From contig NZ_QANS01000006.1 in assembly GCF_003052265.1 (NCBI RefSeq), positions 4,758-68,757 on the forward strand: 64,000 bases of DNA. Direction: 5' to 3'. Under the pieces are notes generated by a model. It did not search any database. It was not told where the DNA came from and worked only from the letters and a program-made list of their open reading frames with translations. The DNA is from Stenotrophobium rhamnosiphilum. Lineage in GTDB: Bacteria; Pseudomonadota; Gammaproteobacteria; Nevskiales; Nevskiaceae. A program made the translations under genes and the position numbers. This document shows, piece by piece, positions 8,209 to 19,869 of the stretch (its first letter is position 1; every line of letters starts with the position of its first letter).

Positions 8209-8232
8209 TGATCCTTGCCCTTTATTACTTCC

Positions 8233-8293
8233 GTAGGAGCGCCTCTTAGGCGCGATGGGTCAATCGCCAATCGCGCCTAAGAGGCGCTCCTAC
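8233..8293. repeat. REPIN copy 1 (two REP units in inverted orientation)
   Basis: Two perfect 24-bp arms (8233-8256 and 8270-8293) begin GTAGGAGCG and each carry an internal hairpin GCGCCT-CTT-AGGCGC; the spacer is 13 bp. A second copy with identical arms lies at 56158-56218. Structure and GTAGGAGC head match REP/REPIN elements mobilised by RAYT transposases in pseudomonads and relatives. Confidence 0.85.
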
Positions 8294-8365
8294 AAGACAT
8301 ACATTGAATAAGCCCCATCGTACATTTGATTGCCGATAGATTGAGCGGGCTATAGACGGCAGCCC

Positions 8366-8401
8366 CAAAACAAAACCCCCGGATGTCGCCATCCGAGGGT
8401 T
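8366..8401 (-). terminator. Terminator of the first LuxR-type gene
   Basis: Stem AACCC(C)CGGATG / CATCCG(A)GGGTT (8374-8401), loop TCGC, followed leftward by TTTTGTTTT. It lies ~100 bp beyond the LuxR stop, after the structured repeat. Confidence 0.7.
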
Positions 8402-8448: not shown

Positions 8449-8498
8449 CCTCGGCTCCTGCGCATCCTGCGCCCGCCGAGGTACCGTACATCCTGTAC
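8449..8498. repeat. Structured repeat copy 1 (nested plus tandem hairpins with TCC loops)
   Basis: The outer stem CCTCGGC/GCCGAGG (8449-8455, 8475-8481) encloses GCGCA-TCC-TGCGC (8460-8472) and is followed by GTACA-TCC-TGTAC (8486-8498). It starts 3 bp past the LuxR stop. Copy 2 (16517-16566) keeps the inner elements but has a completely different, still complementary, outer stem. Confidence 0.75.
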
Positions 8499-8501
8499 AT
8501 A

Positions 8502-9722
8502 TTAACCGAGCGAGACCACGCTATTCAGCAACATGCGAACCAGCATCGTCTGACGCGTCACGCCGGTCTTGCAGAAGATCGAGCGCAGATGCGTACGTGC
8601 AGTGTTGCGCATCACGTTGAGCTGTTCTGCTGCTTCATCGAGCGTGAGGCCATCGGCCAGCAACAGCGCGAGTGCAGCTTCCATACGCGTGAGGCCGAAC
8701 AGACGACGCACGACTTCTTGCGAAGGCTGAGCACCGCTGGATTCTGCATCACGCAGGAAGATTGCCGCAGCAGGACGCTGCTTGCTCTCTGACCATTTAC
8801 CGATTGGAACTGCGCGAACCACGATACCGATCTTGGCGCGGCCAGAAGGACGCGTCACCGACATCGCTTCAACAACTGCTGGACCCGTGCCCGTCGCGCC
8901 GCCCGTCAGTGCCTGACGCAGCATGCGTTGCAGTTCGCGATTTTCTTGATTGCTCGACAGTGCAATGCCACTGCCGCTGCGGCTGATGCCGTCTTTCTCA
9001 CCGAGAATGCGTTGTGCTTCCTGGTTGAGTTCCAGAATCGAACCGTCCTGGCCAAAGCTGATCATGCCGAGCAGCATGCGATTGATTGCACCAGCAAACA
9101 GCTGACGATCGCATTCCAGATAATCGAGTCGTGCATGCAAACGCAGTGAGCGTTTCAGATGCGGCAACAAGAAACGACACAGCGCTTTGTCTTCTGGTGA
9201 GAACGTTGCAGCGTCATTAGGACGCGTCAAACGCAGGCGGCACTCAATGCCTTCCTTGGTGTAAATGTCCGCACCCATCAGATGGCGGATGTTCAGTGGG
9301 CGCAGATAGTCCTGATACATCGGACTCTTCAACCACTGTTGTTTGCCGATCAGTTCTTCGGCAGTGATGACTTCGCCTTCTGGCAAGCGCACGAAAGGAT
9401 CGAGCGCGAAGAAATGAGTTTCGTAAGACTCTGTGGCCTGCTGATTCACCTTGCCGGTGTTAATCATCACGCCCTGTGATTCGGAGGAAGGCGGACGCAG
9501 CATCAAAGTGACATGCGACGCTTCGAGCACATCACGCATCTGCTGAAGCGCGGTGGACCACGGTGGCGATTCCATCGGGCCTTCGTAAATCGCGCCGAGC
9601 AAACGGTCGAGCTTTTCGTAACCAACGTGCTTGCCCGCATCTTGCATCGACAAAATATCGTCGGCAGTTTCTTCCGTCACTGCTGCGGTACGGCCTTTTT
9701 CAGATTTCGCTAGTGTCAACAT
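8502..9722 (-). CDS. LuxR-type transcriptional regulator with GAF/PAS-like sensor region (paralogue A)
   Basis: 406 aa. Residues ~40-190 form a ligand-sensor-like region (HFFALDPFVRLPEGEVITAE; GIECRLRLTR). Residues ~225-330 look PAS-like (GMISFGQDGSILELNQEAQ then ILGEKDG). The C-terminus is a LuxR helix-turn-helix, LFGLTRMEAALALLLADG then LDEAAEQLNVMRNTARTHLR and FCKTGVTRQTMLV. It is clearly paralogous to the regulator at 25713-26927, with conserved blocks along the full length. It is divergent from the ketosteroid isomerase, with the dyad at 9870-9885 between them. It probably senses a steroid or aromatic intermediate (inference). No N-acyl-homoserine-lactone motif is evident. Confidence 0.88.
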   Translation of the reverse strand: MLTLAKSEKGRTAAVTEETADDILSMQDAGKHVGYEKLDRLLGAIYEGPMESPPWSTALQQMRDVLEASHVTLMLRPPSSESQGVMINTGKVNQQATESYETHFFALDPFVRLPEGEVITAEELIGKQQWLKSPMYQDYLRPLNIRHLMGADIYTKEGIECRLRLTRPNDAATFSPEDKALCRFLLPHLKRSLRLHARLDYLECDRQLFAGAINRMLLGMISFGQDGSILELNQEAQRILGEKDGISRSGSGIALSSNQENRELQRMLRQALTGGATGTGPAVVEAMSVTRPSGRAKIGIVVRAVPIGKWSESKQRPAAAIFLRDAESSGAQPSQEVVRRLFGLTRMEAALALLLADGLTLDEAAEQLNVMRNTARTHLRSIFCKTGVTRQTMLVRMLLNSVVSLG

Positions 9723-9869
9723 TCGCTATGTCCTCGAGCACATTACAAGCCGCTTATTTACTGCAGTCCTTGCAGCTAATGAATCCGACTCACTTCGCCG
9801 ATCATAGTCGAATAAGCTTATGCAGCCACGATCGGGGCGACAGTAAAATCGACTCCAGCCCTTGGCGTC

Positions 9870-9885
9870 TCATCCAAACGGATGA
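9870..9885. promoter_or_regulatory. Steroid-region operator motif, site 1
   Basis: TCATCC-AAAC-GGATGA is a perfect 6-4-6 dyad between LuxR paralogue A (start 9722) and the ketosteroid isomerase (start 9988). It is the most symmetrical of seven related sites in this window. Confidence 0.6.
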
Positions 9886-9987
9886 TCATTCAATGAGGCG
9901 GGCTCGCCATGATTCGGGCCCAATGGCCTGAAAGCCGCTGTTTTCACGGCAAATGCGGCCTTTATTACCCCGAACCGGACCCAAATC

Positions 9988-10368
9988 ATGCCCACCGAAC
10001 AAACCATGCGTCAGGCCATGCAGGCCTATATCGACCTCTTTAATGTGAGCGACTCCGCTGGCATCGCTGAGCTGTATGCCGAAGACGCCACCGTCGAAGA
10101 CCCGGTCGGCACCGAGCTGAAAGCGGGCAAGCCCGCAATTGCTGCCTTCTACAAAATGGCGGTTGCCACCGGCGCCAAGCTGAAACTGGCCGCACCGATC
10201 CGCGCTTCGCACGGCAATTCTGCTGCGATGGCGTTTGAAGTTGAGCTGAACATGCCCGAAGGCCGCGCGGTGATTCGCGTGATCGACGTGATGACGTTCA
10301 ATGACGCCGGCAAGTTCACCTCCATGCGCGCTTATTGGGGCAAGGAAGACATGGTGGTGCTGTCGTAA
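9988..10368 (+). CDS. ksi: Steroid delta-isomerase (ketosteroid isomerase)
   Basis: 126 aa, full length for the NTF2-fold isomerase family. It moves the double bond of 3-oxo-Delta5-steroids to Delta4 by intramolecular proton transfer. Active-site residues line up with the classical enzymes: Tyr14 (QAYIDLFN), Asp38 in the signature DATVEDPVG, and Asp100 in VIDVMTF. The protein is soluble with no signal peptide. The ribosome site is weak (GGACCCAAATC). It is transcribed away from LuxR paralogue A and lies 213 bp upstream of the KshA-type oxygenase, so a steroid role is well supported by both sequence and context. Confidence 0.9.
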   Translation: MPTEQTMRQAMQAYIDLFNVSDSAGIAELYAEDATVEDPVGTELKAGKPAIAAFYKMAVATGAKLKLAAPIRASHGNSAAMAFEVELNMPEGRAVIRVIDVMTFNDAGKFTSMRAYWGKEDMVVLS

Positions 10369-10379
10369 ATTCACCTGTG

Positions 10380-10464
10380 GGGCGCGCAATGCGCCCTACT
10401 TGTTCATCTGCCGCAGGGAAAACAGGTTTTCCCGCTACCCCCTCCTAATGGCGGGGGATAGCGG
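10380..10464. repeat. Three consecutive hairpins between ksi and kshA
   Basis: GGGCGC-GCAAT-GCGCCC (10380-10396), GGGAAAAC-AG-GTTTTCCC (10416-10433) and CCGCTA·CCCCC / GGGGG(A)TAGCGG (10432-10464) follow one another. None has a following T-run, so they look like a structured leader or dispersed palindromes; weak termination after ksi is possible. Confidence 0.5.
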
Positions 10465-10581
10465 CAGTTCATTCAAACGGGTGATGTAAGGCTTCTGGCG
10501 AATTCTCAAACTGACGCCATCGTGTGACGCGCGCGTCTGGCGCGCCGTCCACCTCTTAAAAAGCGTATTTGGAGCAGTACC

Positions 10582-11661
10582 ATGGCAACAGCGAAGGAAT
10601 ACGGACTCGGCGAATTCACCTTCCCGCGCGGCTGGTTCATGATCGGCGAATCCGCCAAGATCTCGGACAAACCGCAGGGCGTGAAATTCTTCGGCCAAGA
10701 GTTGGCGCTCTATCGCGGCAAGCAGAGCGGCAAAGTCATCTTGCTCGACGCCTACTGCCCACACATGGGCACGCACCTCGCTCGCAACAGCACCTCTTAC
10801 GTCGCGCAGGATGGCTCGGTTGAAGGCGATTCAATTCGCTGCCCCTACCACGCTTGGCGCTTTGGCCCAGATGGCCGTTGCAATCACATTCCTTATTCAA
10901 CCGGCCCGATTCCACCCGCCGCAAAAGTGCGTGCATGGAAAGTGGAAGAACACATGGGCGCCGTGTTTGTTTGGCACGACCCAGAAGGCGGCGAGCCCGA
11001 CTACGCAGTGCCGGTGATTGCGGAAATGAGCGACCCTTCGTGGGTGCCTATCGCATTTGATGATCTGGGCATCGTCAATTGCCACACGCAAGAAATCGTC
11101 GACAACATCACCGACGTCGCTCACTTCGGCCCAGTGCATGGTTCGATCACCAAGTACTTCGAGAACGAGTTCAAAGGCCACGTTGCAACGCAGCGCATGG
11201 GCGGCGGACATCGCACGCTGACGACCGCTGACGGCCCGATGCTGGAAACCGAAGCGGTCTACACCGGCCCAAGCATCCTGATCACCAAGATGACCGGCAC
11301 ACACGATTCCTACATCTTCATCGCGCACACGCCCGTTGAAGATGGCAGCGCGTATGTTTGGCACGGACTGATGGTGAAATCACCAACCGGCCAAGCCAAA
11401 TACAATGAACAGGACGTTGAGATTGCGCGTCAGTACCAGTCGATGGCACTCGCCGCATTCGCGCAGGATTTTGAAGTGTGGAAGCACAAGAAGCCTTGCT
11501 TCAAGGGTCTGTTTGTTCAGGGCGATGGCCCATTCATCAAGCAGCGCGCTTGGTATCGCCAGTTCTACAACCCGCGTTCGCAGCGTGATGAAATTTTGAA
11601 GAGCGTTGATGGCATTCATCTCGCTCGTGGATTTGAAGGCAAGCCTGCTCAGGCTGCCTAA
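10582..11661 (+). CDS. kshA: Rieske non-haem iron oxygenase, 3-ketosteroid 9alpha-hydroxylase KshA type
   Basis: 359 aa. The Rieske centre ligands are Cys59-x-His61 (YCPHMGTH) and Cys87-x2-His90 (RCPYHAWRFG). The catalytic iron site is NITDVAHFGPVHG (His181, His186) with Asp296 in AQDFEVWKHK. WHDPEGG and the region around YFENEFKGHVATQ resemble KshA, which hydroxylates C9 of 3-ketosteroids and leads to opening of ring B. GGAG lies 7 nt before the ATG. The reductase partner KshB is absent from the window, so it is encoded elsewhere or another reductase serves. A different position on a steroid cannot be excluded. Confidence 0.82.
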   Translation: MATAKEYGLGEFTFPRGWFMIGESAKISDKPQGVKFFGQELALYRGKQSGKVILLDAYCPHMGTHLARNSTSYVAQDGSVEGDSIRCPYHAWRFGPDGRCNHIPYSTGPIPPAAKVRAWKVEEHMGAVFVWHDPEGGEPDYAVPVIAEMSDPSWVPIAFDDLGIVNCHTQEIVDNITDVAHFGPVHGSITKYFENEFKGHVATQRMGGGHRTLTTADGPMLETEAVYTGPSILITKMTGTHDSYIFIAHTPVEDGSAYVWHGLMVKSPTGQAKYNEQDVEIARQYQSMALAAFAQDFEVWKHKKPCFKGLFVQGDGPFIKQRAWYRQFYNPRSQRDEILKSVDGIHLARGFEGKPAQAA

Positions 11662-11670
11662 CGAGTACTT

Positions 11671-11734
11671 GTCATCGCGAGGGATCTTGCCTTAGTTCTT
11701 CAACTGCAAGATTCCTCACTACGTTCGGAATGAC
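11671..11734. repeat. Dispersed inverted repeat, degenerate copy
   Basis: The right arm GATTCCTCACTACGTTCGG plus AATGAC matches the arm of the repeat at 13256-13327. The left arm is eroded to GTCATCGCGAGGGATCTTG. The two copies bracket the NTF2/SDR gene pair. Confidence 0.6.
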
Positions 11735-11752
11735 AATAAAAAGCTAACAATA

Positions 11753-11776
11753 AAAAAGCCCGCTATGCGGGCTTTT
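11753..11776. terminator. Bidirectional terminator between kshA and the NTF2-like gene
   Basis: AAAAAAGCCCGC-TAT-GCGGGCTTTTTT serves converging transcripts from kshA (+) and the gene ending at 11795 (-). Confidence 0.88.
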
Positions 11777-11794
11777 TTATTGCAGCAGAAAACT

Positions 11795-12289
11795 TTAACC
11801 AGGCTGTTTCGTACCAACCTTAGCCAGCATGTGCGCCGTGATGTTCGGCGTTTCGGTGACTGGCGTCACGATCTCGTAAATGCGCTCATACGTCGCACGC
11901 TTGATCAGCCACTTGCCGTTCTGCTTCACGTAAGTATCGCGATACAGCGCGGTGCCGTCGGTGATGATCTTGTGCTTGAGATCAAGGAACCAATCCTTCA
12001 GATACCAAACGCCGGTCGCTTCGGTAGCCGACAGCAAATCAATTTCCGGATGATTGACGTGATGCATCGCGATGGCTTCAGCGTGGAAGGCATAACGTAG
12101 CGCGTCCAGAATTTTGTCGCGGCCTTCGGTTTCAAAACGGTAGCTGCCGCCGACGTAGCAAACGCTGGCGTCTTCGGTAAACAGTTCTTTCAGGCCATCG
12201 ATATTGGCCGTATCGATGCAACGGCAATAGGCGTACTTGAGACGACGGATCAGTTCCAGATCTTCTAACTGCTGCAATGACAATGACAT
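11795..12289 (-). CDS. NTF2/SnoaL-fold protein (SnoaL_4 type)
   Basis: 164 aa. LQQLEDLELIRRLKYAYCRC then DGLKELFTEDASVCY is the typical opening of small SnoaL-like dehydratase/isomerase-fold proteins; ATGVWYLKDWFLD and DTYVKQNGKWLIKRATYERI complete the cone-shaped fold. The ATG at 12289 is preferred because AGGAG lies 6-7 nt upstream; the GTG one codon earlier would overlap that spacing. It is encoded 33 bp after an SDR gene on the same strand. Similar proteins serve as dehydratases or isomerases in steroid and polyketide pathways; the reaction here is unknown. Confidence 0.82.
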   Translation of the reverse strand: MSLSLQQLEDLELIRRLKYAYCRCIDTANIDGLKELFTEDASVCYVGGSYRFETEGRDKILDALRYAFHAEAIAMHHVNHPEIDLLSATEATGVWYLKDWFLDLKHKIITDGTALYRDTYVKQNGKWLIKRATYERIYEIVTPVTETPNITAHMLAKVGTKQPG

Positions 12290-12322
12290 CACTCTCTCCT
12301 TAAGTATTGATATGCGGACGGC

Positions 12323-13090
12323 TTAAATGCCGAAGCCGCCCGAAACATTGATCTGCTGACCGGTGACATAACCATTGGTTGCGAGGAACACTGCAGCGCT
12401 ACCGATTTCTTCTGGCTTGCCCCAACGCTTGAGCGGCAGCAGCTTCTGCGTTTCTTCAATCCACTTAGCGTCGAACACACCGCGCTGCAAGAGTTCGAGG
12501 AACATGCCTGCTTCGATCACGCCAACCAGAATGCTGTTAGCGCGAATGTTGTTGCGACCTTCTTCTTTTGCGATGCCTTTGCACAGCGCTTCGTTAGCGG
12601 CCTTAGGTACTACCGACAAACCATCTTTCGGTGGGAACCATGCGTGGCCTGCAGAACCGAGGTGCACATACGAACCGCCACCCTGCTCACGCAGATGCGG
12701 CAGCGTTGATTGAACAGCATTGAAGAAGCCATGCACTTCGATATCGATCGACTGCTTCCACAGCGCAGGCGTTGCATCGCCGAGCAGTACCTGCTCAACC
12801 ACAGGGCCAGCAGCCCACACCACCGTGTGAATGCGGCCGTGTGCCGCAACCGCTTCTGCAATAGCCGCCTTGAGCTGCGCAGGATCAGTCACGTCTGCAG
12901 CGTGCACCGTTGCTTTGCGACCGAGCGCACTGATCTCACCAGCAACGCGATCTGCAACTTCTTTTTTCTTGCGATAAACGATGGCGACATCCGTGCCAGA
13001 CTGACCAAAGAACTTCGCTACGCCTTGCCCGATACCGCCGCTGCCGCCAAACACCAGCACCGCGCCTTTCGGAAATTTGTTCAGCTCCAT
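12323..13090 (-). CDS. SDR-family protein lacking the catalytic tyrosine
   Basis: 255 aa. The N-terminal cofactor motif is intact (VFGGSGGIGQG), and VYRKKKE after beta-strand 2 suggests NADP preference. The expected Tyr-x3-Lys reads SVVPK (in DGLSVVPKAANEAL): the lysine is there but Ser replaces Tyr. The C-terminal GYVTGQQINVSGGFG is canonical. The ATG at 13090 has GGAG 6 nt upstream (TGGAGCGCGTA); the GTG four codons earlier is less likely. Either the chemistry differs from a normal SDR or the protein is a hydratase/isomerase or structural partner of the adjacent SnoaL protein (inference). Confidence 0.82.
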   Translation of the reverse strand: MELNKFPKGAVLVFGGSGGIGQGVAKFFGQSGTDVAIVYRKKKEVADRVAGEISALGRKATVHAADVTDPAQLKAAIAEAVAAHGRIHTVVWAAGPVVEQVLLGDATPALWKQSIDIEVHGFFNAVQSTLPHLREQGGGSYVHLGSAGHAWFPPKDGLSVVPKAANEALCKGIAKEEGRNNIRANSILVGVIEAGMFLELLQRGVFDAKWIEETQKLLPLKRWGKPEEIGSAAVFLATNGYVTGQQINVSGGFGI

Positions 13091-13152
13091 TACGCGCTCC
13101 ACCGTCTATTTATTGTGAGCGGCGATTATTTGTAGCTGGCGCGTTTGCGGCC

Positions 13153-13168
13153 TCATCCGATGAGACGA
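13153..13168. promoter_or_regulatory. Steroid-region operator motif, site 2
   Basis: TCATCC-GATG-AGACGA lies 63 bp upstream of the SDR start and within the divergent gap shared with the Kst4D-like gene. It also contains a short perfect palindrome CTCATCCGATGAG (13152-13164). Confidence 0.5.
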
Positions 13169-13255
13169 CAGTTCAATGTTGCGGCGCGACTACTCCGTAT
13201 GACGGTGGTTTAGCTGCGACAGCTAGATCAGGCTGAGGCAAGGAATAAGAGCTTT

Positions 13256-13327
13256 GTCATCCCGAACGCAGTGAGGGATCTCGCCGTGAGAATTAACAGC
13301 AGGATTCCTCACTGCGTTCGGAATGAC
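13256..13327. repeat. Dispersed inverted repeat, well-preserved copy
   Basis: The left arm GTCATCCCGAACGCAGTGAG and its near-perfect inverse (ending TGCGTTCGGAATGAC) enclose ~25 bp. It is related to the degenerate copy at 11671-11734. This palindrome type is scattered through many proteobacterial genomes. Confidence 0.7.
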
Positions 13328-13383
13328 AAAGTGAGTGTTATTAATGCCTATAAACCTATAAGTAAATAAATAATCACAATACT

Positions 13384-14862
13384 ATGACCAACGAAACCGC
13401 CGAATACTCACTCTCCCGCCCCTGCCGCAAAGTGCCGCAATGGGATATCGAAACCGATATCGCCATCATCGGCTTTGGCGCTTCAGGCGCATCCGCTGCG
13501 ATTGAAGCGGCGAGTGCTGGCGCGAAGGTGACGCTGTTCGAAGCAACTTCTGGCAACGGCGGTACATCCGCATTGTCTGGCGGCGAAATTTATCTCGGCG
13601 GCAACGGCGGCACGCCGATTCAAAACGCTGCAGGCTTTAGCGACGACACCGAAGCGCTCTATCAATACCTGTTGATGGCCGGCGGCCCCAATGCAGACGC
13701 CGCGAAAGTGCGACTCTACGCCGACAACAGCCTAAAGCATTACGAGTGGCTGCTCGCACAAGGCGTCGAATACAAGAATTCATTTATTCCACAACGCATC
13801 GTTGAACCCGATACCGATGATTGTTTGATCTGGAGCGGCAGTGAAGAAGCATGGCCGTTCTCAGAACAAGCCAAGCCCTGCCCGCGCGGCCACACGCCGA
13901 AGTTCATGGGCATGGGTGCTGGTCGTTACCTGATGGACAAACTCGCCGCACGCGTCACTGCGCTCGGCGTAGACGTGCGTTACGACTCGCGCGCAGTTGC
14001 GCTCATCACCGACGAATCGAGCCGCGTCATTGGCATCGTCATTCGCAATGCAGGCAAGGATTCCTACGTACGTGCACGCAAAGGCGTTGCGCTGTGCGCA
14101 GGCGGCTTCGTGATGAATCGCGAGATGGTGAAGAAAAACGCGCCGTGGATGCTGCAATCGAATCATCCGATTGGCACCGTCGATGACGGCTCCGGCATCA
14201 CCATGGGACAAAGCGTTGGCGGCGCTGCGATCAACATGAGCGAAGGCTTTGTAACGCTGCCTTGGTATCCACCAGAGTCGCTGATCAAAGGTATCTTCAT
14301 CAACGAACGTGGCCAGCGTTACATCAACGAAGACTGCTATCACGGCCGCACCGCCCATCACGGAATGCAGCAACGCTCCACACGTTTGTTTTCACTACAA
14401 GACAGCGAGACCTACGGCGAACCCTTATTTGGTCAGTTCGCAAAGATCGGCATTGCAGGCACCGGCGACACATGGGAAGAAGTCGAGAAAGAATTGGAGC
14501 TGCCCGCAGGTAGCCTCACGACGACGGTCGAGCTCTACAACCGCTTCGCCGCAGAAGGCAGCGATCTGCTATTCCACAAAGCCAAGAAGTGGCTCAAGCC
14601 TTTGAACAAGCCACCGTTCGTTGCACTGGATTGCCGCATCGACGTTTGCTTCTACCCAACCTTCACACTCGGCGGCCTCGACACCTTGCCAACCGGCGAA
14701 GTACTCAACGCAGATCGCAAACCGATCGCAGGTCTCTACGCTGCGGGCCGTACCGCCTGTGGCTTGCCACGTTGGGGCGAAGGCTATAGCTCTGGCATGT
14801 CGCTGGCGGATGCCACCTTCTTTGGTCGACAACTGGGCTCAAGAGTCGTGTCTGTTGCTTAA
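13384..14862 (+). CDS. FAD-dependent 3-ketosteroid dehydrogenase-like flavoprotein (Kst4D/KstD family)
   Basis: 492 aa. The dinucleotide-binding motif IIGFGASGASAAIEAASAG starts at residue 28 (GFGASG at 30-35), followed by NGGTSALSGGEIYLGGNGGT, a hallmark of the fumarate-reductase/KstD flavoproteins. PCPRGHTPKFMGMGAG and the C-terminal RTACGLPRWGEGYSSGMSLA line the FAD site. Length and the YLGG/PRGH blocks favour a 3-oxo-5alpha-steroid 4-dehydrogenase (Kst4D) over the longer 1-dehydrogenase KstD, but this is from memory of family features. It introduces a ring-A double bond, upstream of KshA chemistry. The start ATG has only a weak ribosome site. Divergent from the SDR at 12323. Confidence 0.72.
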   Translation: MTNETAEYSLSRPCRKVPQWDIETDIAIIGFGASGASAAIEAASAGAKVTLFEATSGNGGTSALSGGEIYLGGNGGTPIQNAAGFSDDTEALYQYLLMAGGPNADAAKVRLYADNSLKHYEWLLAQGVEYKNSFIPQRIVEPDTDDCLIWSGSEEAWPFSEQAKPCPRGHTPKFMGMGAGRYLMDKLAARVTALGVDVRYDSRAVALITDESSRVIGIVIRNAGKDSYVRARKGVALCAGGFVMNREMVKKNAPWMLQSNHPIGTVDDGSGITMGQSVGGAAINMSEGFVTLPWYPPESLIKGIFINERGQRYINEDCYHGRTAHHGMQQRSTRLFSLQDSETYGEPLFGQFAKIGIAGTGDTWEEVEKELELPAGSLTTTVELYNRFAAEGSDLLFHKAKKWLKPLNKPPFVALDCRIDVCFYPTFTLGGLDTLPTGEVLNADRKPIAGLYAAGRTACGLPRWGEGYSSGMSLADATFFGRQLGSRVVSVA

Positions 14863-14896
14863 ATAGCCTTGCACCGATTCAAGAGCGCAATGTCAT

Positions 14897-14912
14897 GCCC
14901 GCGCAGGCGGGC
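14897..14912. repeat. GC-rich hairpin after the Kst4D-like gene
   Basis: GCCCGC-GCAG-GCGGGC within TGTCATGCCCGCG, 34 bp past the stop. It is a common dispersed palindrome; there is no T-run, so termination is doubtful. Confidence 0.45.
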
Positions 14913-15002
14913 ACGACGGTCTGCGTAGAGTTTCCTTAAGATGCGACATGCGCGGAGACAAAACCTCTGCGCACTTCGCTCGCATCCTCAGGAGACTCAT
15001 CG

Positions 15003-15917
15003 ATGATTGTTCGTCCACTCCAGCATTGGCTACGCATGCTGTTCGTGTGGCGTGGCTCGGTGCTGGGACGCATCTTGCCGCAACTCGCAGTGGTGATCCT
15101 GTGGTCAATAGCCGTCGCCTTGGCGCAAGGCACAGTGCTCGGCTTCAAGATCGATCTGACGATTGCACCCTTTACGCTGCTCGGCATCGCCCTCGCGATC
15201 TTTCTAGGCTTTAGCAACAGCGTCAGCTACGACCGCTACTGGGAAGCACGAAAACTTTGGGGCGCACTGCTGAACGACTCGCGCTCGCTAACGCGACAGA
15301 TCATGAGTCTCGCTGATGTCGACGCCACCGTTCAGCGGCGCTTTGCCTACGGCGCAATCGCTTTTGTTCACGCACTGAAACACCAACTGCGTAATACCTC
15401 CGCCGAGGCCGATCTTGCGCGCTGCCTGCCGCCGGAATGGCAGGCACGAGTTCAATCTGCACAATTCAAACCTGCAGTGATTTTAGTTCTGCTGGCTGAT
15501 GTTGTTCGCGAGCTACGCCAGAATGGGCAACTGTCACCGATGTTGGTGCCAGCGATTGATCGCCACCTCAGCCAACTCAACGAAGCACTTGGCGGCTGCG
15601 AGCGGATCGCTGGCACGCCGATTCCCTTTGCCTACTCCGTCATCCTTCATCGCACAGCGTATCTATACAGCTTCCTACTGCCGTTTGGACTGGTGCATTC
15701 CATTGGCCTGCTGACACCGCTGATCGTCGCCTTTATCTCTTACACCTTCTTTGCGCTGGAAGCGCTGGCAGAAGAAATACAAGAACCTTTCGGCACCGAA
15801 CCCAACGATCTGGCACTCAAAGCCATGTCCGTCATGATCGAAAGCACCGTGCGCGAAATGCTCGGTGAAACTGATCTGCCGGAAGCCGTTGCAGCAAAGA
15901 ACTACATCCTCAGCTAA
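15003..15917 (+). CDS. Bestrophin-family anion channel protein
   Basis: 304 aa, inner membrane. The opening PLQHWLRMLFVWRGSVLGRI, the hydrophobic segments ~23-45 and ~56-75, and FLGFSNSVSYDRYWEARKLW (GF-x-N-x2-SYDRYWEGR-type signature) are characteristic of bacterial bestrophins (UPF0187). The C-terminal half holds two more helices (YLYSFLLPFGLVHSIGLLT; IVAFISYTFFALEALAEEI) and EEIQEPFGTEPNDLAL. AGGAG lies 8 nt before the ATG. It would form a pentameric chloride or cation channel. Nothing in the context ties it to steroid genes. Confidence 0.88.
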   Translation: MIVRPLQHWLRMLFVWRGSVLGRILPQLAVVILWSIAVALAQGTVLGFKIDLTIAPFTLLGIALAIFLGFSNSVSYDRYWEARKLWGALLNDSRSLTRQIMSLADVDATVQRRFAYGAIAFVHALKHQLRNTSAEADLARCLPPEWQARVQSAQFKPAVILVLLADVVRELRQNGQLSPMLVPAIDRHLSQLNEALGGCERIAGTPIPFAYSVILHRTAYLYSFLLPFGLVHSIGLLTPLIVAFISYTFFALEALAEEIQEPFGTEPNDLALKAMSVMIESTVREMLGETDLPEAVAAKNYILS

Positions 15918-15965
15918 AGCCGCTGGAGTAGACTGCGCGCATCCGCCACTTACCTGCGTACTAAT

Positions 15966-16214
15966 ATGTCCACCGAAAAATTCACACTCGACGGCGAATA
16001 CATCGAAGTCAATCTCTTGCTCAAACTCGTTGGCGTCTGCGATAGCGGCGGCGCGGGCAAGATGCTGGTCGCTAATGGCGAAGTTTCTGTTGATGGTGTT
16101 GCCGAAACTCGCAAGACCGCAAAAATTCGCGCCGGCCAGAAAGTCACTTGCGGCGATACCGAAATTCTTGTGGTTGCCGATCCCAAAGGCGGTGTCGACG
16201 GCCGAGTCAGATGA
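15966..16214 (+). CDS. S4-domain RNA-binding protein, YbcJ family
   Basis: 82 aa. EYIEVNLLLKLVGVCDSGG then GKMLVANGEVSVDG and ETRKTAKIRAGQ form a complete small S4 domain as in YbcJ, which binds RNA and is thought to act in ribosome or translation-related processes. The cytosolic protein is the first of two coupled genes: its TGA overlaps the ATG of the DUF1653 gene by 4 bp. Confidence 0.88.
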   Translation: MSTEKFTLDGEYIEVNLLLKLVGVCDSGGAGKMLVANGEVSVDGVAETRKTAKIRAGQKVTCGDTEILVVADPKGGVDGRVR

Positions 16215-16459
16215 ACATCGCTGAATTCAAGCCTGGCGTCTATCGCCACTACAAAGGCAACTACTACCTCGCGCTGGGCTTAGCACGCGAAGACGAAACC
16301 AACGAGACCGTTGTCGTTTATACACGCCTGTATCCGCGTGAAGGTTTGCCGATGAGTACGCGCAAGCTCAGCGTATGGAATGAAACGGTGCGCGTAGAGC
16401 CTGACGGCGCGTTGATGGCGCGCTTTGATTATGTCGGGCATGAGACGCCGAATATTTAG
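16211..16459 (+). CDS. DUF1653 protein
   Basis: 82 aa. FKPGVYRHYKGNYYLALGLA, then TNETVVVYTRLYP and FDYVG are the conserved blocks of DUF1653, a small beta-barrel family of unknown function. I start it at ATG 16211, inside the stop of the S4 gene (ATGA overlap), because family homology begins at residue 4; an upstream in-frame ATG at 16148 would add an Arg-rich tail that is the out-of-frame shadow of the S4 gene. Confidence 0.85.
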   Translation: MNIAEFKPGVYRHYKGNYYLALGLAREDETNETVVVYTRLYPREGLPMSTRKLSVWNETVRVEPDGALMARFDYVGHETPNI

Positions 16460-16516
16460 AGCGTTTTATTTTCGCTCTTGCGCGGCCAATTATTGATTTC
16501 TGTACTTGGGGAGAGA

Positions 16517-16566
16517 ATCCCGTTCCTGCGCATCCATGCGCCCACGGGATACAGTACATCCTGTAC
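16517..16566. repeat. Structured repeat copy 2
   Basis: The outer stem ATCCCGT/ACGGGAT (16517-16523, 16544-16550) encloses GCGCA-TCCA-TGCGC (16528-16541), then GTACA-TCC-TGTAC (16554-16566). The inner and tandem hairpins match copy 1 (8449-8498) while the outer stem differs compensatorily. Confidence 0.75.
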
Positions 16567-16570
16567 ATAA

Positions 16571-16603
16571 AAAGAACCCGCAGCCAAGGGAAGCTGCGGG
16601 CTC
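16571..16603 (-). terminator. Terminator of the DUF1302-DUF1329 operon
   Basis: CCCGCAGC (16577-16584) pairs with GCTGCGGG (16593-16600); leftward it is followed by TTCTTTTTATG. It lies ~135 bp beyond the DUF1329 stop. Confidence 0.72.
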
Positions 16604-16735: not shown

Positions 16736-18100
16736 TTAATGCCCGCTGCGCTGTGCCGCATCGGGTGCAAACATATCAGCAGTGATATCGCCAACGTTCA
16801 AACGCCAACCTGCTTTAGATTGATTGACCATACGGTCTGCCAAATAAACATCTGCGTTGAGATCGTGATACAGCGCGATACCGGCTTGATATCCCTGAAT
16901 CGCTGGCGACCAGAAATGATTCACCATGCTGGCGCGCCATAGCTGACCGCGTGCGTCGTAGTTATCGACCCAGATTGCGTGCCAGCTATCTTCATCAAGA
17001 TAGAAGCGGCGCTTGGCGTAAGCGTGACGGAAACCTTTTTTCACCGTTGCTTCCAACACCCACACGCGATGCAACTCATAGCGCATGTATTCCGGATTGA
17101 GTGAATTGACCGTCAGCAACTCGTTGTACTTGAGCGCAGGATCATTCATCTTGAATGTGTTGTACGGAATATAAATTTCCTGCTTGCCGACCAGCTTCCA
17201 GTCGTAACGTTCAGGCGAGCCGTTGAACAAACGATCGTCATCTACCGTACGGAAACCACCCGCACCTTGTGGCGTATCAAAACCAAATTCAGGTGCCTGA
17301 CGTACACGACGCGTGCCTGGGCTATAGAACCAAGTCTGACGATCCAATGAATTGTCGTTCGGCGTCCAGCCGGTGTAGATCGAACCCTTGTCGCGTTCAG
17401 GCAACAGCGTCAGCACGTTGAAGTAGCTGTTGATCTTGTCCTGATTGCTGCCGCGATGATTGGGATCATTCCACGGCGACAGAATGCGGTAGTAAACGCG
17501 GCCAAATGTTTTGCTGCCATTGGCGTAGATCACAGCCTGATCTTGCGTGGCTTCTTCAGTCCATGCGCGATGTGGATACTGCATATTCCACTGCGCTTCG
17601 ATGCCCGCTTTAGGAAATGGAAACGGCGTAGCGCCCGTGGTGCCGGTGATGCCCAGACCATTGCTCACCACTTCAGCAGTGGTGGCATTTTTCTTTGCTG
17701 CATCACAGACCCAATCCGGATAACGGAAATCGCGATGACTCTGATAAACCGGAATGCGATAAGTTTTTGGATAACGTTTCAGCAGCGCTTTCTGTCCTTC
17801 GGTTAAACGCGCTGCGTACTGCTCAACATTCTGTTCGGTGATTGTGAACAGTGGTTTCTCCGCAGCGTAAGGGCCCGGATCATAACCACCGCCCTTGGAT
17901 GCATCAGACCAAGCGCCCTGCCACTTTCCTGAGAAAGCGGGGATTGAGCCGTCGGCATTACCCGCACGCTCAGCGCCGATACACGTGAGCTTGTCGCTAC
18001 CGAGTTGCGCGGCTTCTTCAGCGGTTGTTTTTGCAAAAGCAGATTGCGTGAGCAAGCTGCTAATCACTGCACAAGACAATAGGATGTGTTTCATCGTCAT
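16736..18100 (-). CDS. DUF1329 exported protein (first copy)
   Basis: 454 aa. Signal peptide MKHILLSCAVISSLLTQSAFA then KTTAEEAAQLGSDKLTCIGAERAGN, the conserved N-terminus of DUF1329. Further family blocks are YPKTYRIPVYQSHRDFRYP, DKGSIYTGWTPNDNS, WFYSPGTRRVRQAPEFGFD, FNGSPERYDWKLVGKQEI and YELHRVWVLEATVKKGFRHA. The fold is related to LolA/LolB-type lipoprotein carriers, suggesting a periplasmic lipid- or steroid-handling role together with the DUF1302 barrel encoded 16 bp upstream (inference). Start 18100 was chosen over a longer frame because AGGAG lies 6 nt upstream and the extension overlaps DUF1302. Confidence 0.88.
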   Translation of the reverse strand: MTMKHILLSCAVISSLLTQSAFAKTTAEEAAQLGSDKLTCIGAERAGNADGSIPAFSGKWQGAWSDASKGGGYDPGPYAAEKPLFTITEQNVEQYAARLTEGQKALLKRYPKTYRIPVYQSHRDFRYPDWVCDAAKKNATTAEVVSNGLGITGTTGATPFPFPKAGIEAQWNMQYPHRAWTEEATQDQAVIYANGSKTFGRVYYRILSPWNDPNHRGSNQDKINSYFNVLTLLPERDKGSIYTGWTPNDNSLDRQTWFYSPGTRRVRQAPEFGFDTPQGAGGFRTVDDDRLFNGSPERYDWKLVGKQEIYIPYNTFKMNDPALKYNELLTVNSLNPEYMRYELHRVWVLEATVKKGFRHAYAKRRFYLDEDSWHAIWVDNYDARGQLWRASMVNHFWSPAIQGYQAGIALYHDLNADVYLADRMVNQSKAGWRLNVGDITADMFAPDAAQRSGH

Positions 18101-18116
18101 GGTGTTCTCCTGACGT

Positions 18117-19721
18117 TTAGAAGCTGTACTTGAGATTGATCGCGGCATAGTCACGATCCGCGTAAGGACGCTTGGCGAGATCGCCAGATCCGAGGAATGC
18201 GCTGTAACCCACACCTAGCTGGAAATTCTGCAGATAGGTGAAATTGGCAAACAGACTGGCACGTTGATCGTGCTCGCCATACAGACTGCCGAATGAACCC
18301 GACATCGCTGGCGTGCCTTTAGCAATCACGGCATACGTCACCGGCACGGCTAAATCCCAACGTGGAAATACATTGCGATAGTTCAACGTTGCGCTGGTCG
18401 ACACAGCCCATGAGTTAACGTCACTCACTAACGCTGCCTTGCCGCCATCAACGCCGTTAACGTGTACATAACCTGCTTCGCCAACGAGATTAATTTCTTG
18501 CGACAAAGCATTCGGGCTCACGGTGTAGATTGCAGACATCAGGGCCTGAGTCATACGGCCACGCGTTGCCACTGGGCCGCCAACACTGCTCACCAACATA
18601 TCTACGCCACTGCGATAGCTGACTTCACCTGCGACATTGGCTCCGCCAAGTCCGGTCGAGAAACTTGCACCGGCCATGTGAATGCCTTCGAAGTAATCAA
18701 CGTGATAAGCCGTTGGCACAAACACGCCAGGTGCAACTTCTGCAATATCAAAACTGACACCCGCAGGATTGGTGCTGTGATAACGCAGCCAGTAAAGACC
18801 AACGCTTGTCGCGTCCGTCGCTTGATACTTAAGACCGACGCCGTACTGACCATGATCGGTCGGCTGATTGTCCGCGCCGCGTGGAATATCAAATCCGACT
18901 GCTGCATGAATCATTTCTGCGCCCGGGCCTACAACATCACTCGTCGACAGAAAGCTGCCAACAGGTTGCAGCTCTGTTGCTTCATACCGCAGTTTGTAAT
19001 GTGCCATCAGACTCAAGCCATTGTTGAATCCAAGTTGCATCGCAATCTGCTCAACGGGTAACAGAATCGTTTTAAGTTCTGCACCGGGCACGCTAGATTT
19101 CGTGGCGTCTGCAGGACCTTGTGCGCTGGCGATGCCAGAGAAGAACAAACTCTCGCCCCAAGCAACAACTTGGCGGCCTACGCGCACATTCAGATGTGCC
19201 GCTTTGCCAAGATTGAAATCTGTATATGCGTAAGCATCCAACAAACGCATACGCTGTCCGTTGTACTTGCGCGTCAAGCTAGTGAACTCGTCGTTGTCGC
19301 CGCTCTTGTTGACCGTTGCTGCGGAGTCATTGTCATTGCGACCGCGGTAAACGTTGTCGTAAAACGCATCACCACGCAGAACCGCGCCATAGTTTTTAGC
19401 GCTCAGTGAAAACTCTCCGAGCGCGCTGATGCGATTGTTGACCAAGCTGCCAGATTTAAAATTGCGATCACCATCATCGCCATTCACAGTCGTGGGCAAA
19501 CCCGTCGCCGGATCTATCGGCCCATTCGCGAGGCTGTCGGATGGACTCTCTGTACGCATCGCCAAGGCATAGCCCAGCGTCATCGTGTACTGAGCATTGA
19601 TTCCGCTAGTGCCCAAATCAAAAGAACCTGCCAAAGCTGCGCCGCTAAATCCGGCACTAGCACAAAGCAGTGCTACAGCGACTCGTCGCGTAGCGGGATT
19701 GGTATGTTGTAGGTAGTGCAT
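18117..19721 (-). CDS. DUF1302 outer-membrane beta-barrel protein
   Basis: 534 aa. Signal peptide VAVALLCASAGFSGAALA, then GSFDLGTSGINAQYTMTLGY and NRISALGEFSLSAKNYGAVL as in DUF1302 proteins. The C-terminus DRDYAAINLKYSF ends in Phe, typical for Bam-dependent outer-membrane barrels. Alternating amphipathic strands run through the protein. GGAGGAGACCTC precedes the ATG at 19721; the open frame continues upstream but without a signal. DUF1302/DUF1329 pairs recur in bacteria that grow on steroids, fatty acids and other hydrophobic compounds, and an uptake role is inferred. The operator motif at 19781-19796 lies 60 bp upstream. Confidence 0.9.
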   Translation of the reverse strand: MHYLQHTNPATRRVAVALLCASAGFSGAALAGSFDLGTSGINAQYTMTLGYALAMRTESPSDSLANGPIDPATGLPTTVNGDDGDRNFKSGSLVNNRISALGEFSLSAKNYGAVLRGDAFYDNVYRGRNDNDSAATVNKSGDNDEFTSLTRKYNGQRMRLLDAYAYTDFNLGKAAHLNVRVGRQVVAWGESLFFSGIASAQGPADATKSSVPGAELKTILLPVEQIAMQLGFNNGLSLMAHYKLRYEATELQPVGSFLSTSDVVGPGAEMIHAAVGFDIPRGADNQPTDHGQYGVGLKYQATDATSVGLYWLRYHSTNPAGVSFDIAEVAPGVFVPTAYHVDYFEGIHMAGASFSTGLGGANVAGEVSYRSGVDMLVSSVGGPVATRGRMTQALMSAIYTVSPNALSQEINLVGEAGYVHVNGVDGGKAALVSDVNSWAVSTSATLNYRNVFPRWDLAVPVTYAVIAKGTPAMSGSFGSLYGEHDQRASLFANFTYLQNFQLGVGYSAFLGSGDLAKRPYADRDYAAINLKYSF

Positions 19722-19780
19722 GAGGTCTCCTCCTCTGAACAGTGCGGATTGATGGTAGGAGTCGCGCACTGCAACAAACC

Positions 19781-19796
19781 TCGTCCGAATTGAGAT
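19781..19796. promoter_or_regulatory. Steroid-region operator motif, site 3
   Basis: TCGTCC-GAAT-TGAGAT lies between the divergent DUF1302 gene (start 19721) and the VOC gene (start 19870). It matches TCRTCCG exactly, with a weak right arm. Confidence 0.5.
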
Positions 19797-19869
19797 GCAT
19801 AAAGCGATGAGGAAACTTGCGGGGCAAACGCTCAGCATTCACGGCGTAATCATCCGTGGAGTCCCTGTT

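Follow-up and report, generated by a model that had tools for sequence, protein, structure and literature searches.

We identified a dispersed repeat of about 54 nt in Stenotrophobium rhamnosiphilum whose copies abut intrinsic terminators in one orientation and whose two hairpin loops follow the A(N)GGAN pattern on one strand. We read it as a mobile, REP/MITE-like palindromic repeat that carries paired CsrA-type hairpins and lies behind terminators, a reading in which CsrA binding, transcription and mobility are what we infer and to which, taken whole, we give slightly less than an even chance (about 0.47).

The window analysed here is a 64,000-nucleotide stretch of DNA (assembly GCF_003052265.1, contig NZ_QANS01000006.1, positions 4,758-68,757). 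It contains two copies of the repeat, listed below with their parts and neighbours in window coordinates.

8374..8401, minus strand: intrinsic-terminator-like stem-loop of 12 pairs with a T-rich tail, 3' of copy 1 in the minus sense
8449..8498, minus strand: repeat copy 1, with GGA loops in the minus sense (the first-pass annotation gave its orientation as plus)
8449..8455, plus strand: copy 1 outer-stem left arm CCTCGGC, partner of 8475-8481, present in the fold
8460..8472, minus strand: copy 1 inner hairpin GCGC-AGGAT-GCGC (minus sense) with a CsrA-type loop, from sequence and fold
8475..8481, plus strand: copy 1 outer-stem right arm GCCGAGG, from sequence
8486..8498, minus strand: copy 1 second hairpin GTAC-AGGAT-GTAC (minus sense), from sequence and fold
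8502..9722, minus strand: LuxR-type regulator ORF with its stop codon 3 bp from copy 1
16517..16566, minus strand: repeat copy 2, from sequence, fold and covariance model
16517..16523, plus strand: copy 2 outer-stem left arm ATCCCGT, partner of 16544-16550, present in the plus-strand fold
16528..16541, minus strand: copy 2 inner hairpin GCGC-ATGGAT-GCGC (minus sense), from sequence and fold
16544..16550, plus strand: copy 2 outer-stem right arm ACGGGAT, from sequence
16554..16566, minus strand: copy 2 second hairpin GTAC-AGGAT-GTAC (minus sense), replaced by a register-shifted hairpin in the predicted minus-strand minimum-free-energy (MFE) structure
16569..16603, minus strand: intrinsic terminator adjoining copy 2, with a stem-loop at 16574-16603 and five T at 16569-16573
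16736..18214, minus strand: DUF1329 gene, the nearest minus-strand gene upstream of copy 2's terminator

On the plus strand, copy 1 reads CCTCGGC / TCCT / GCGCA-TCC-TGCGC / CC / GCCGAGG / TACC / GTACA-TCC-TGTAC and copy 2 reads ATCCCGT / TCCT / GCGCA-TCCA-TGCGC / CC / ACGGGAT / ACA / GTACA-TCC-TGTAC. The letters bear out the first-pass annotation in describing a shared GCGCA/TGCGC inner hairpin and a shared GTACA-TCC-TGTAC hairpin, outer stems that differ while staying complementary, and a regulator stop codon 3 bp from copy 1 (TTA at 8502-8504, minus strand, in the LuxR-type gene). Its statement that every hairpin has a TCC loop holds for three hairpins but not for the inner loop of copy 2, which is TCCA. 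The annotation had not seen the high copy number, the patchy distribution, the terminator adjacency or the CsrA-type loops on the opposite strand. The sole Pfam match of the regulator ORF is GerE, at 23.0 bits just below the family cut-off of 23.5. The stem-loop at 8374..8401 would place copy 1 inside the 3' UTR of this gene. The terminator adjoining copy 2 folds at -24.3 kcal/mol (z -5.9).

A covariance-model search of the genome and its relatives, as the first-pass annotation had proposed, places the repeat at 53 positions in the S. rhamnosiphilum genome at E<=0.01 (54 are listed at E<=1) and at further positions in other genomes. Within the window the model finds exactly the places of the two copies, at 81.9 and 62.8 bits, both of them intact members of the family; its seed contains copy 2 and leaves out copy 1. 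The genome contains the 13-mer GTACATCCTGTAC 23 times and its reversed control 0 times, and TCCTGCGCATCC 34 times, again with a control count of 0; the repeat thus exceeds chance. Its spread among genomes is patchy. The model found three copies in a same-genus genome and no copies in 34 of the 41 genomes searched with it, and a sample of the class, for which no more than 15 candidates were scored in each genome, has the unit in 63 of its 369 genomes at E<=1e-4.

All three stems of the unit covary, and the outer stem is the most variable. Among 50 distinct S. rhamnosiphilum rows, two-sided changes affect 7 of 7 outer, 2 of 5 inner and 3 of 5 3'-hairpin pairs, and the covariation score was reached by 0 of 500 shuffles of an alignment that is itself fitted to the model. 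Five of 22 aligned rows, copy 1 included, were kept out of the model seed, so that one covariation count rests on chosen rows. A search free of pairing gave the same picture: outer arms match at a mean of 6.25 of 7 bases in 12 S. rhamnosiphilum copies against 4.5 for swapped arms (best of 200 swaps, 5.4), and at 4.55 against 3.70 in 29 copies from other genomes (best swap, 3.97). Unpaired outer arms and random fragments are not the rule, with 91.9% of outer-stem cells paired and a single fragment (L228) among the 50 rows. The compensatory change that the first-pass annotation took as a sign of selection on RNA or DNA structure is thus real and extends past the outer stem, but stem substitutions do not by themselves decide between RNA and DNA, since outer pairs 1-5 have as few G-T as A-C cells (6 of each among 585 cells from 117 anchored copies, with 535 Watson-Crick).

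The predicted plus-strand folds of the two window copies are those that the first-pass annotation had drawn (z -4.7 and -4.8). On the minus strand the drawn fold is recovered for copy 1 (z -3.8), and the MFE structure of copy 2 (z -4.0) has a register-shifted second hairpin, favoured over the drawn one by 1.1 kcal/mol. A register shift of the second hairpin is found in 10 of 14 S. rhamnosiphilum rows with an ACA spacer, the spacer of copy 2. Both GGA cores are unpaired on the GGA strand in 28 of 44 S. rhamnosiphilum rows, copy 1 included and copy 2 not; fold and loop counts exclude rows longer than 58 nt.

The loops of the GGA strand follow A(N)GGAN, two per unit; their spacing is 23 nt in copy 1 as in copy 2. 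When pairing alone defines the stems, a GGA core is found in 358 of 390 loops. A hairpin readable in two registers may count twice in this tally, loci L054-L166 had been retrieved by an exact 17-mer in which the loop of the second hairpin is fixed, and the covariance model lowers the score for a loop change of any kind, whichever side it is on. An A precedes the GGA core, directly or with one base between, in all 358; 353 of these read A(N)GGAY, with Y standing for T in 316, C in 22, A in 13 and G in 2, and the remaining five are AGGA closed by C-G. The A is kept in 37 loops whose facing base has changed, and the converse was not seen. Several of the 32 loops with other cores are register-shifted readings, and three S. 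rhamnosiphilum copies have a CGA-type core in the second hairpin's loop. At the level of sequence, the A(N)GGAN rule is the recognition pattern of CsrA/RsmE. The SELEX consensus for CsrA is given as RUACARGGAUGU, in which ACA and GGA are invariant and a hairpin loop holds the GGA, in the passages cited from PMC4347634. The second hairpin of copy 1 equals this consensus without its second R, and a tandem second unit beside the S. rhamnosiphilum locus L193, which reads GTACAAGGATGT, matches it exactly. The GGA strand looks like a docking site for the global RNA regulator CsrA, as a prediction.

The S. rhamnosiphilum genome has one csrA (5.6e-23), in favour of the CsrA reading, and a csrA match is present in 58 of the 63 unit-carrying genomes of the class sample; the five carriers that gave no match count against it, four of them being 55-77% complete and the fifth (G162) 95% complete. 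Among well-assembled genomes the unit is present in 53 of 280 with CsrA versus 1 of 34 without (Fisher p = 0.015, uncorrected for kinship), and over all 369 genomes the association has p = 0.085. We also considered additional CsrA-like hairpins around the S. rhamnosiphilum units and set them aside: outside the units, these flanks hold 8 GGA-loop hairpins versus 4.6 after shuffling, with no clear enrichment, and 10 TCC-loop hairpins versus 3.6. On the GGA strand of flanks in other genomes, TCC loops outnumber GGA loops (72 versus 38, where shuffling gives 11 and 10); oppositely oriented units are therefore frequent in the neighbourhood.

Placement at terminators is non-random. When read along the GGA strand, 35 of 48 S. 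rhamnosiphilum copies and 61 of 118 other copies begin immediately behind the T-tract of an intrinsic terminator, and the identical test at the opposite end of the unit gives 0 of 48 and 3 of 118. Transcription of the gene on the terminator side runs towards the unit in 27 of the 32 S. rhamnosiphilum copies found by a fixed pattern (a subset of the 53) and at 65 of 76 sites in other genomes, where tandem neighbours are counted separately; 37 of 113 other and 9 of 23 S. rhamnosiphilum sites were set aside in the gene-orientation count as lying inside ORFs according to a crude ORF caller. One copy is flanked by a ferritin-family gene, and in all 16 relatives compared at this locus, which are other genera restricted to those in which the gene end was read, no unit lies within 140 nt of the gene end; five of them show a terminator by eye. 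A layout of the E. coli Rr type, with a second terminator behind each unit, was rejected: a strict scan up to 160 nt downstream of the unit gave none in 49 S. rhamnosiphilum and none in 109 other regions, where the same scan misses the imperfect terminator behind copy 1 and detects only 24 of 49 upstream terminators.

This placement looks like the outcome of directed insertion of a REP/MITE-like element. The repeat would then be a dispersed, probably mobile gammaproteobacterial element that lands behind terminator T-tracts in one orientation, insertion being the presumed cause of its position. Each unit may offer two A(N)GGAN loops to the dimeric RNA-binding protein CsrA/RsmE, with stem sequence free as long as it pairs. 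A transcript reading through the terminator, or a 3' UTR as with copy 1, would therefore contain a CsrA docking module of two sites; titration of CsrA or marking of that transcript could be the result. A position behind a terminator would at the same time mean that little GGA-strand RNA is made, which counts against the CsrA reading. It is rather unlikely, in our estimate, that selfish palindromes inserting behind terminators spread CsrA/Rsm sites through gammaproteobacterial genomes on a scale at which read-through, added up across dozens of loci, would act as a distributed sponge for this global regulator, with the Bacillaceae-1 and TwoAYGGAY RNA motifs as sister branches.

The most serious competitor, which we hold to be possible if doubtful, is a mobile palindrome that acts purely at the DNA level, moved in single-stranded form by a hairpin-recognising, HUH/Y1-like transposase or another recombinase whose need for the hairpins keeps the stems paired, its likeness to CsrA sites being coincidental. 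Patchy, lineage-specific amplification and the orientation-specific location at terminator T-tracts both speak for such an element, as do tandem arrays (for example, 5.1 copies of 52 nt at L065) and inverted pairs of units that flank interiors (L261-L264). Ordinary RNA helices carry G-U, and the near-absence of G-U cells in these stems, with few wobble cells on either strand at outer pairs 1-5, is unlike them and would also fit a DNA-level hairpin. In 11 of 44 S. rhamnosiphilum rows, moreover, the MFE structure of the GGA strand lacks the second hairpin as drawn. Against this explanation stands the A(N)GGAN rule, in which the A is fixed and its partner free: this is the rule of CsrA/RsmE and requires no DNA enzyme.

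A search for a mobilising enzyme also bears on the DNA-level explanation, and its Y1_Tnp and RVT_1 results speak against it. The single Y1_Tnp gene of the genome (C16:92652-92933) is more than 11 kb from any model hit, the nearest on its contig being at 54 kb and 105 kb, and an origin from a RAYT was rejected on this ground. Group II intron-like enzymes target terminators; retro-insertion by such an enzyme was likewise rejected, as no RVT_1 match was found in the S. rhamnosiphilum genome. The ORF lists of L155, L172, L263 and L264, read without a family library, show no transposase between neighbouring copies.

An RNA element of the plus strand with TCC loops, for instance one lying between the left-hand gene and a bidirectional terminator that stabilises a 3' end or serves as a processing site, appears improbable. 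Plus-strand folds are as stable as those of the minus strand, both window copies take the drawn fold there, and 15 of the 32 S. rhamnosiphilum copies follow a plus-sense gene. The left-hand gene nevertheless appears to be oriented at random (16 reverse, 15 forward, 1 uncalled), against a right-hand gene that is reverse in 27 of 32, and the T-tract of the right-hand terminator lies on the minus strand. Outer pair 6 also argues against it, with 40 A-C cells on the plus strand, equivalent to G-U on the minus strand, and no G-T, although a single common inherited form dominates these cells. This position supplies 40 of the 46 A-C cells that face 6 G-T cells over the 117 copies, all of which fit an anchored pattern; over 58 distinct stems the counts are 14 A-C versus 5 G-T (p = 0.064), and a smaller count on core stems, which parsed 73 of 207 distinct rows, gives 7 G-T and 4 A-C. 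Choosing the strand by wobble pairs was set aside as not decisive.

Re-copying of the stems by template switching (quasi-palindrome correction) at each copying, with pairing as a mutational by-product and not a result of selection, would suit the 28 distinct arm pairs in 36 parsed S. rhamnosiphilum copies (a few of them mismatched or misparsed) and the scarcity of half-changed intermediates, but leaves the invariant loops and the terminator placement unexplained, sits poorly with mismatched intermediates such as CTCCGC/GCGAAG, and appears improbable.

If the GGA strand of the repeat binds CsrA, intergenic repeats that seem inert would supply RNA that binds a regulator, in an amount that varies among species with copy number (53 copies in S. 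rhamnosiphilum against 3 found in the genome from the same genus), and a testable explanation would be at hand for two Rfam motifs whose function is unknown. Without such binding, the repeat would remain a structured and probably mobile element that sharply prefers terminator T-tracts and for which no transposase was found here.

Among the known systems close to the unit is the Bacillaceae-1 RNA (RF01690), with which it shares an outer stem of 7, an inner hairpin, a three-base spacer and a second hairpin, both loops being UCC. The unit aligns to this model over its full length (1-67, cmscan) with stem and hairpins in the same order, and the four best Bacillaceae-1 matches of the genome (22.5-28.0 bits) are copies of the unit, the top two scoring 28.0 and 27.4 bits, with copy 1 second at 27.4. 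Copy 2 scores 17.9 bits, a level that unrelated families equalled; no copy reaches the gathering score of 35 bits, and Rfam at gathering threshold gives 0 matches over the whole window. Since 12 of 14 control genomes also give matches at the loose E<=10 of the genome search, the informative part is the coincidence of the best matches with copies. Bacillaceae-1 differs in being described as an RNA, whereas the unit here is a repeat behind terminators, and in being placed in Bacillales and Lactobacillales in the cited part of PMC4333381. The same part proposes CsrA binding for TwoAYGGAY and for the reverse complement of Bacillaceae-1 (PMC4333381). Among the open-licence papers that our searches listed, we found none in which such repeats are linked to CsrA or the element appears in print as a repeat.

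The TwoAYGGAY RNA (RF01731), recorded from Gammaproteobacteria among others in the portion cited of PMC2864571, likewise has two hairpins with A-Y-GGA-Y loops. It differs in its 168 positions, long stems and other architecture; the S. rhamnosiphilum genome gives 12 sub-threshold matches, none on a listed copy, and at locus L091 a sub-threshold match of 39.4 bits is separated by 15 bp from a weak unit and by 90 bp from a strong one.

By layout, the unit resembles RrA, RrB and RrF of the E. coli rRNA operons, which also lie directly behind the first terminator with GGA in hairpin loops and are, in the passages cited, CsrA-bound read-through products (PMC8144298). These are three loci with a second terminator, whereas the unit is a dispersed repeat. 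REPs associated with RAYTs (TnpA-REP) share with it short, intergenic, high-copy palindromes, varied stems and tandem and inverted arrangements. Most REPs are defined by GTAG/CGTC tags, according to the cited section of PMC3733652; the unit differs in having two hairpins plus an outer stem and no end tag. In 50 distinct S. rhamnosiphilum rows neither end has a conserved GTAG/CGTC tag, and these letters occur sporadically inside the variable arms. Several GGA-loop hairpins are also found in the CsrB/RsmZ sponge RNAs, and the loop core of the unit, CAGGAUG, resembles the CsrB repeat. CsrB gathers about 18 CsrA sites within one RNA, as stated in the excerpt cited (PMC8144298), whereas here the sites come two per unit over 53 places.

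Both repeat copies in the window belong to a dispersed palindromic unit of about 54 nt. It represents a new repeat family, or a subfamily, that has CsrA-type loops and sits behind terminators. On the plus strand the unit reads N7 - TCCT - [GCGCA TCC(A) TGCGC] - CC - N7' - AC(C/A) - [GTACA TCC TGTAC] - ATAA; its TCC loops read GGA on the opposite strand (the GGA sense, minus for both copies). The relevant window features are:

8231-8295, both orientations: inverted GTAG-type REP pair (GTAGGAGCGCC...GGCGC, then its reverse complement), BIME-like
8374-8401: terminator following copy 1 in the GGA sense
8449-8498, GGA sense minus: copy 1
8502-9722, minus: LuxR-type regulator gene
16517-16566, GGA sense minus: copy 2
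16569-16603: terminator behind the DUF1329 gene
16736-18214, minus: DUF1329 gene
16736-19838, minus: adjacent DUF1329 and DUF1302 genes (family matches)

The first-pass annotation had proposed a structured repeat here and had based its structural argument on a co-varying outer stem. The first observation was borne out by a covariance model seeded with 17 chosen rows (copy 2 included, copy 1 left out), which found both window copies as intact units. This model places the unit at 53 positions of the 3.96-Mb genome at E<=0.01 and at 54 at E<=1, and an exact search with the 13-mer of the second hairpin gives 23 occurrences, its reversed control 0. The structural argument holds as well: in 12 copies from this genome located by loops alone, prior to any model, the outer arms match at a mean of 6.25 of 7 positions versus 4.5 with arms swapped. 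In a model-fitted alignment of 50 distinct rows from this genome, 94.4% of cells are paired, 12 of the 17 pairs have changed on both sides, and the covariation score is 0.479 versus at best 0.085 for slid versions of the structure. Second-hairpin stems occur as GTAC, GGCC, GTCC, GGGC, GAAC, GCAC and GTGC, the complement always matching; there is little variation in the loops, the spacers and the terminal ATAA. Outer pairs 1-5 contain 6 G-T and 6 A-C among 585 cells, a scarcity that fits DNA hairpins and RNA equally.

Six copies in this genome (L211, L172:2556-2656, L220, L223, L216 and L226) carry a module of about 48 nt nested within the inner hairpin (CGGCAACTGCTCCTGCGTTGCTCTACTTCGGGCATCCATGCCCTCACC and variants), which has a TCC-type hairpin loop of its own. 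Other dispersed hairpins of this genome, with ATGGAT loops and outside the unit's family (L287, L288, L290, L294 and L296), surfaced as sub-threshold TwoAYGGAY matches; some have flanks in common.

With stems set by pairing only and loops read in the GGA sense, GGA stands at the expected place in 358 of 390 loops, preceded in all 358 by an A that either adjoins it or is separated from it by any single base. Facing this A, the 353 A(N)GGAY loops have T (316), C (22), A (13) or G (2); the remaining 5 of the 358 are AGGA closed by a C-G pair. The A is thus kept in 37 loops in which the facing base has changed, with no case of the opposite. Were the two bases a structural closing pair, both would be expected to change; a protein that reads A(N)GGAN would produce the pattern observed, and CsrA reads RNA in this way. 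Loci L054-L166 were retrieved with a 17-mer in which the second loop is fixed, a bias that touches neither the inner loop nor the own-genome and class-sample sets. In three copies of this genome, one loop has a core of CGA type. The two GGA lie 23 nt apart in both window copies, within the range that a CsrA dimer bridges. In the predicted GGA-strand folds, neither GGA is paired in 28 of 44 rows from this genome, copy 1 included; among rows with the ACA spacer, a register-shifted hairpin is favoured in 10 of 14 predicted folds (by 1.1 kcal/mol in copy 2). A SELEX study gives the CsrA consensus as RUACARGGAUGU, in which ACA and GGA are invariant and the GGA sits in a hairpin loop (PMC4347634). 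Additional GGA loops are not clearly enriched in the flanks of this genome's copies; in other genomes, opposite-orientation units are common nearby.

Read in the GGA sense throughout, a stem-loop with T-tract directly abuts the unit start in 35 of 48 own-genome copies and 61 of 118 elsewhere, a test that copies inside tandem arrays would be expected to fail; at the unit's far end, the same test gives 0 and 3. Transcription of the terminator-side gene runs towards the unit in 27 of 32 own-genome copies, and the opposite-side gene has no preference (16 reverse, 15 forward, 1 uncalled). Elsewhere, the terminator-side gene points towards the unit in 65 of 76 sites between called ORFs (113 sites in total, from a crude ORF caller and with tandem neighbours counted separately). 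A strict scan for a second terminator up to 160 nt downstream of the unit found none in 49 own-genome and 109 other regions; it also misses the imperfect terminator behind copy 1. Inspected terminators vary between loci and therefore look native, the unit looking added. Behind a ferritin-family gene, the unit is absent in 16 of 16 relatives with a readable gene end, and five of these, judged by eye, still have a terminator there. As all 16 belong to other genera, the comparison falls short of a clean empty site.

Copy 2 has the usual layout, behind the DUF1329 gene's terminator. Copy 1 is atypical: it directly follows the regulator's stop codon and precedes the terminator, and would therefore lie inside the regulator gene's 3' UTR. 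DUF1329/DUF1302 gene pairs often accompany degradation of steroids and related compounds. The REP pair, whose sequence differs from that of the unit, is separated from copy 1 by about 150 bp. Copies at L002, L011 and L045 adjoin another repeat (AGATTCCTCACT..GTTCGGAATGAC) in place of a terminator.

Matches at E<=0.01 occur in 7 of 41 genomes of relatives, this one included (53 copies here, 3 in a same-genus genome, 1 to 3 in five others). In the class sample, 63 of 369 genomes have a match at E<=1e-4 (own included), with at most 15 candidates scored per genome, which makes the copy numbers minimum values. Scanning GTDB genomes with a 17-mer returned at least 113 stretches, by their titles mostly Gammaproteobacteria; among the matches listed are Marinobacterium, Colwellia, Nitrincola, Rheinheimera, Solemya symbionts and others. 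Chance probably accounts for some exact matches, such as those in Bacteroides or Chitinophaga. Tandem arrays occur in other genomes; one in a Colwellia holds 5.1 copies of 52 nt. This patchy spread is the behaviour of an amplifying repeat, unlike that of a conserved gene; a search of this genome found no mobilising enzyme for the unit. Opposite-orientation pairs flank interiors of about 270 bp in genome G049 (L261, L262) and 0.6-1.5 kb in G125 (L263, L264), with further GGA hairpins outside these pairs, as larger composite elements.

A CsrA match is present in 58 of the 63 class-sample carriers; one carrier, 95% complete, has none (G162). Among good assemblies, the unit is carried by 53 of 280 genomes that have CsrA and by 1 of 34 that lack it (p = 0.015, with no correction for kinship); the p value over all 369 genomes is 0.085.

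The four best own-genome matches to the Bacillaceae-1 model, which others built from Bacillales and Lactobacillales, are full-length matches to unit copies, copy 1 among them. Their scores of 22.5-28.0 bits fall short of the cut-off, 35, in a search that scored 150 of 789 candidates and in which 12 of 14 control genomes also match at E<=10. In another genome, a near-threshold TwoAYGGAY match (L091:3897-3985, minus strand; 39.4 versus 43 bits) lies 15 bp from a weak unit and 90 bp from a strong one, in a stretch with several units; a TGTAA-AAGGAA-TTACA hairpin is nearby. The RMfam paper proposes that CsrA binds TwoAYGGAY and also Bacillaceae-1 in reverse complement (PMC4333381), the latter being the strand favoured here. 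The E. coli RrA/B/F RNAs, as one report describes them, are CsrA-bound read-through products from behind the first of two terminators and have only modest effects (PMC8144298); a small role is therefore the sober expectation for the unit. The unit fits no single family's definition in full; it resembles REP/MITE elements in its spread and, by its loops, a CsrA-binding RNA.
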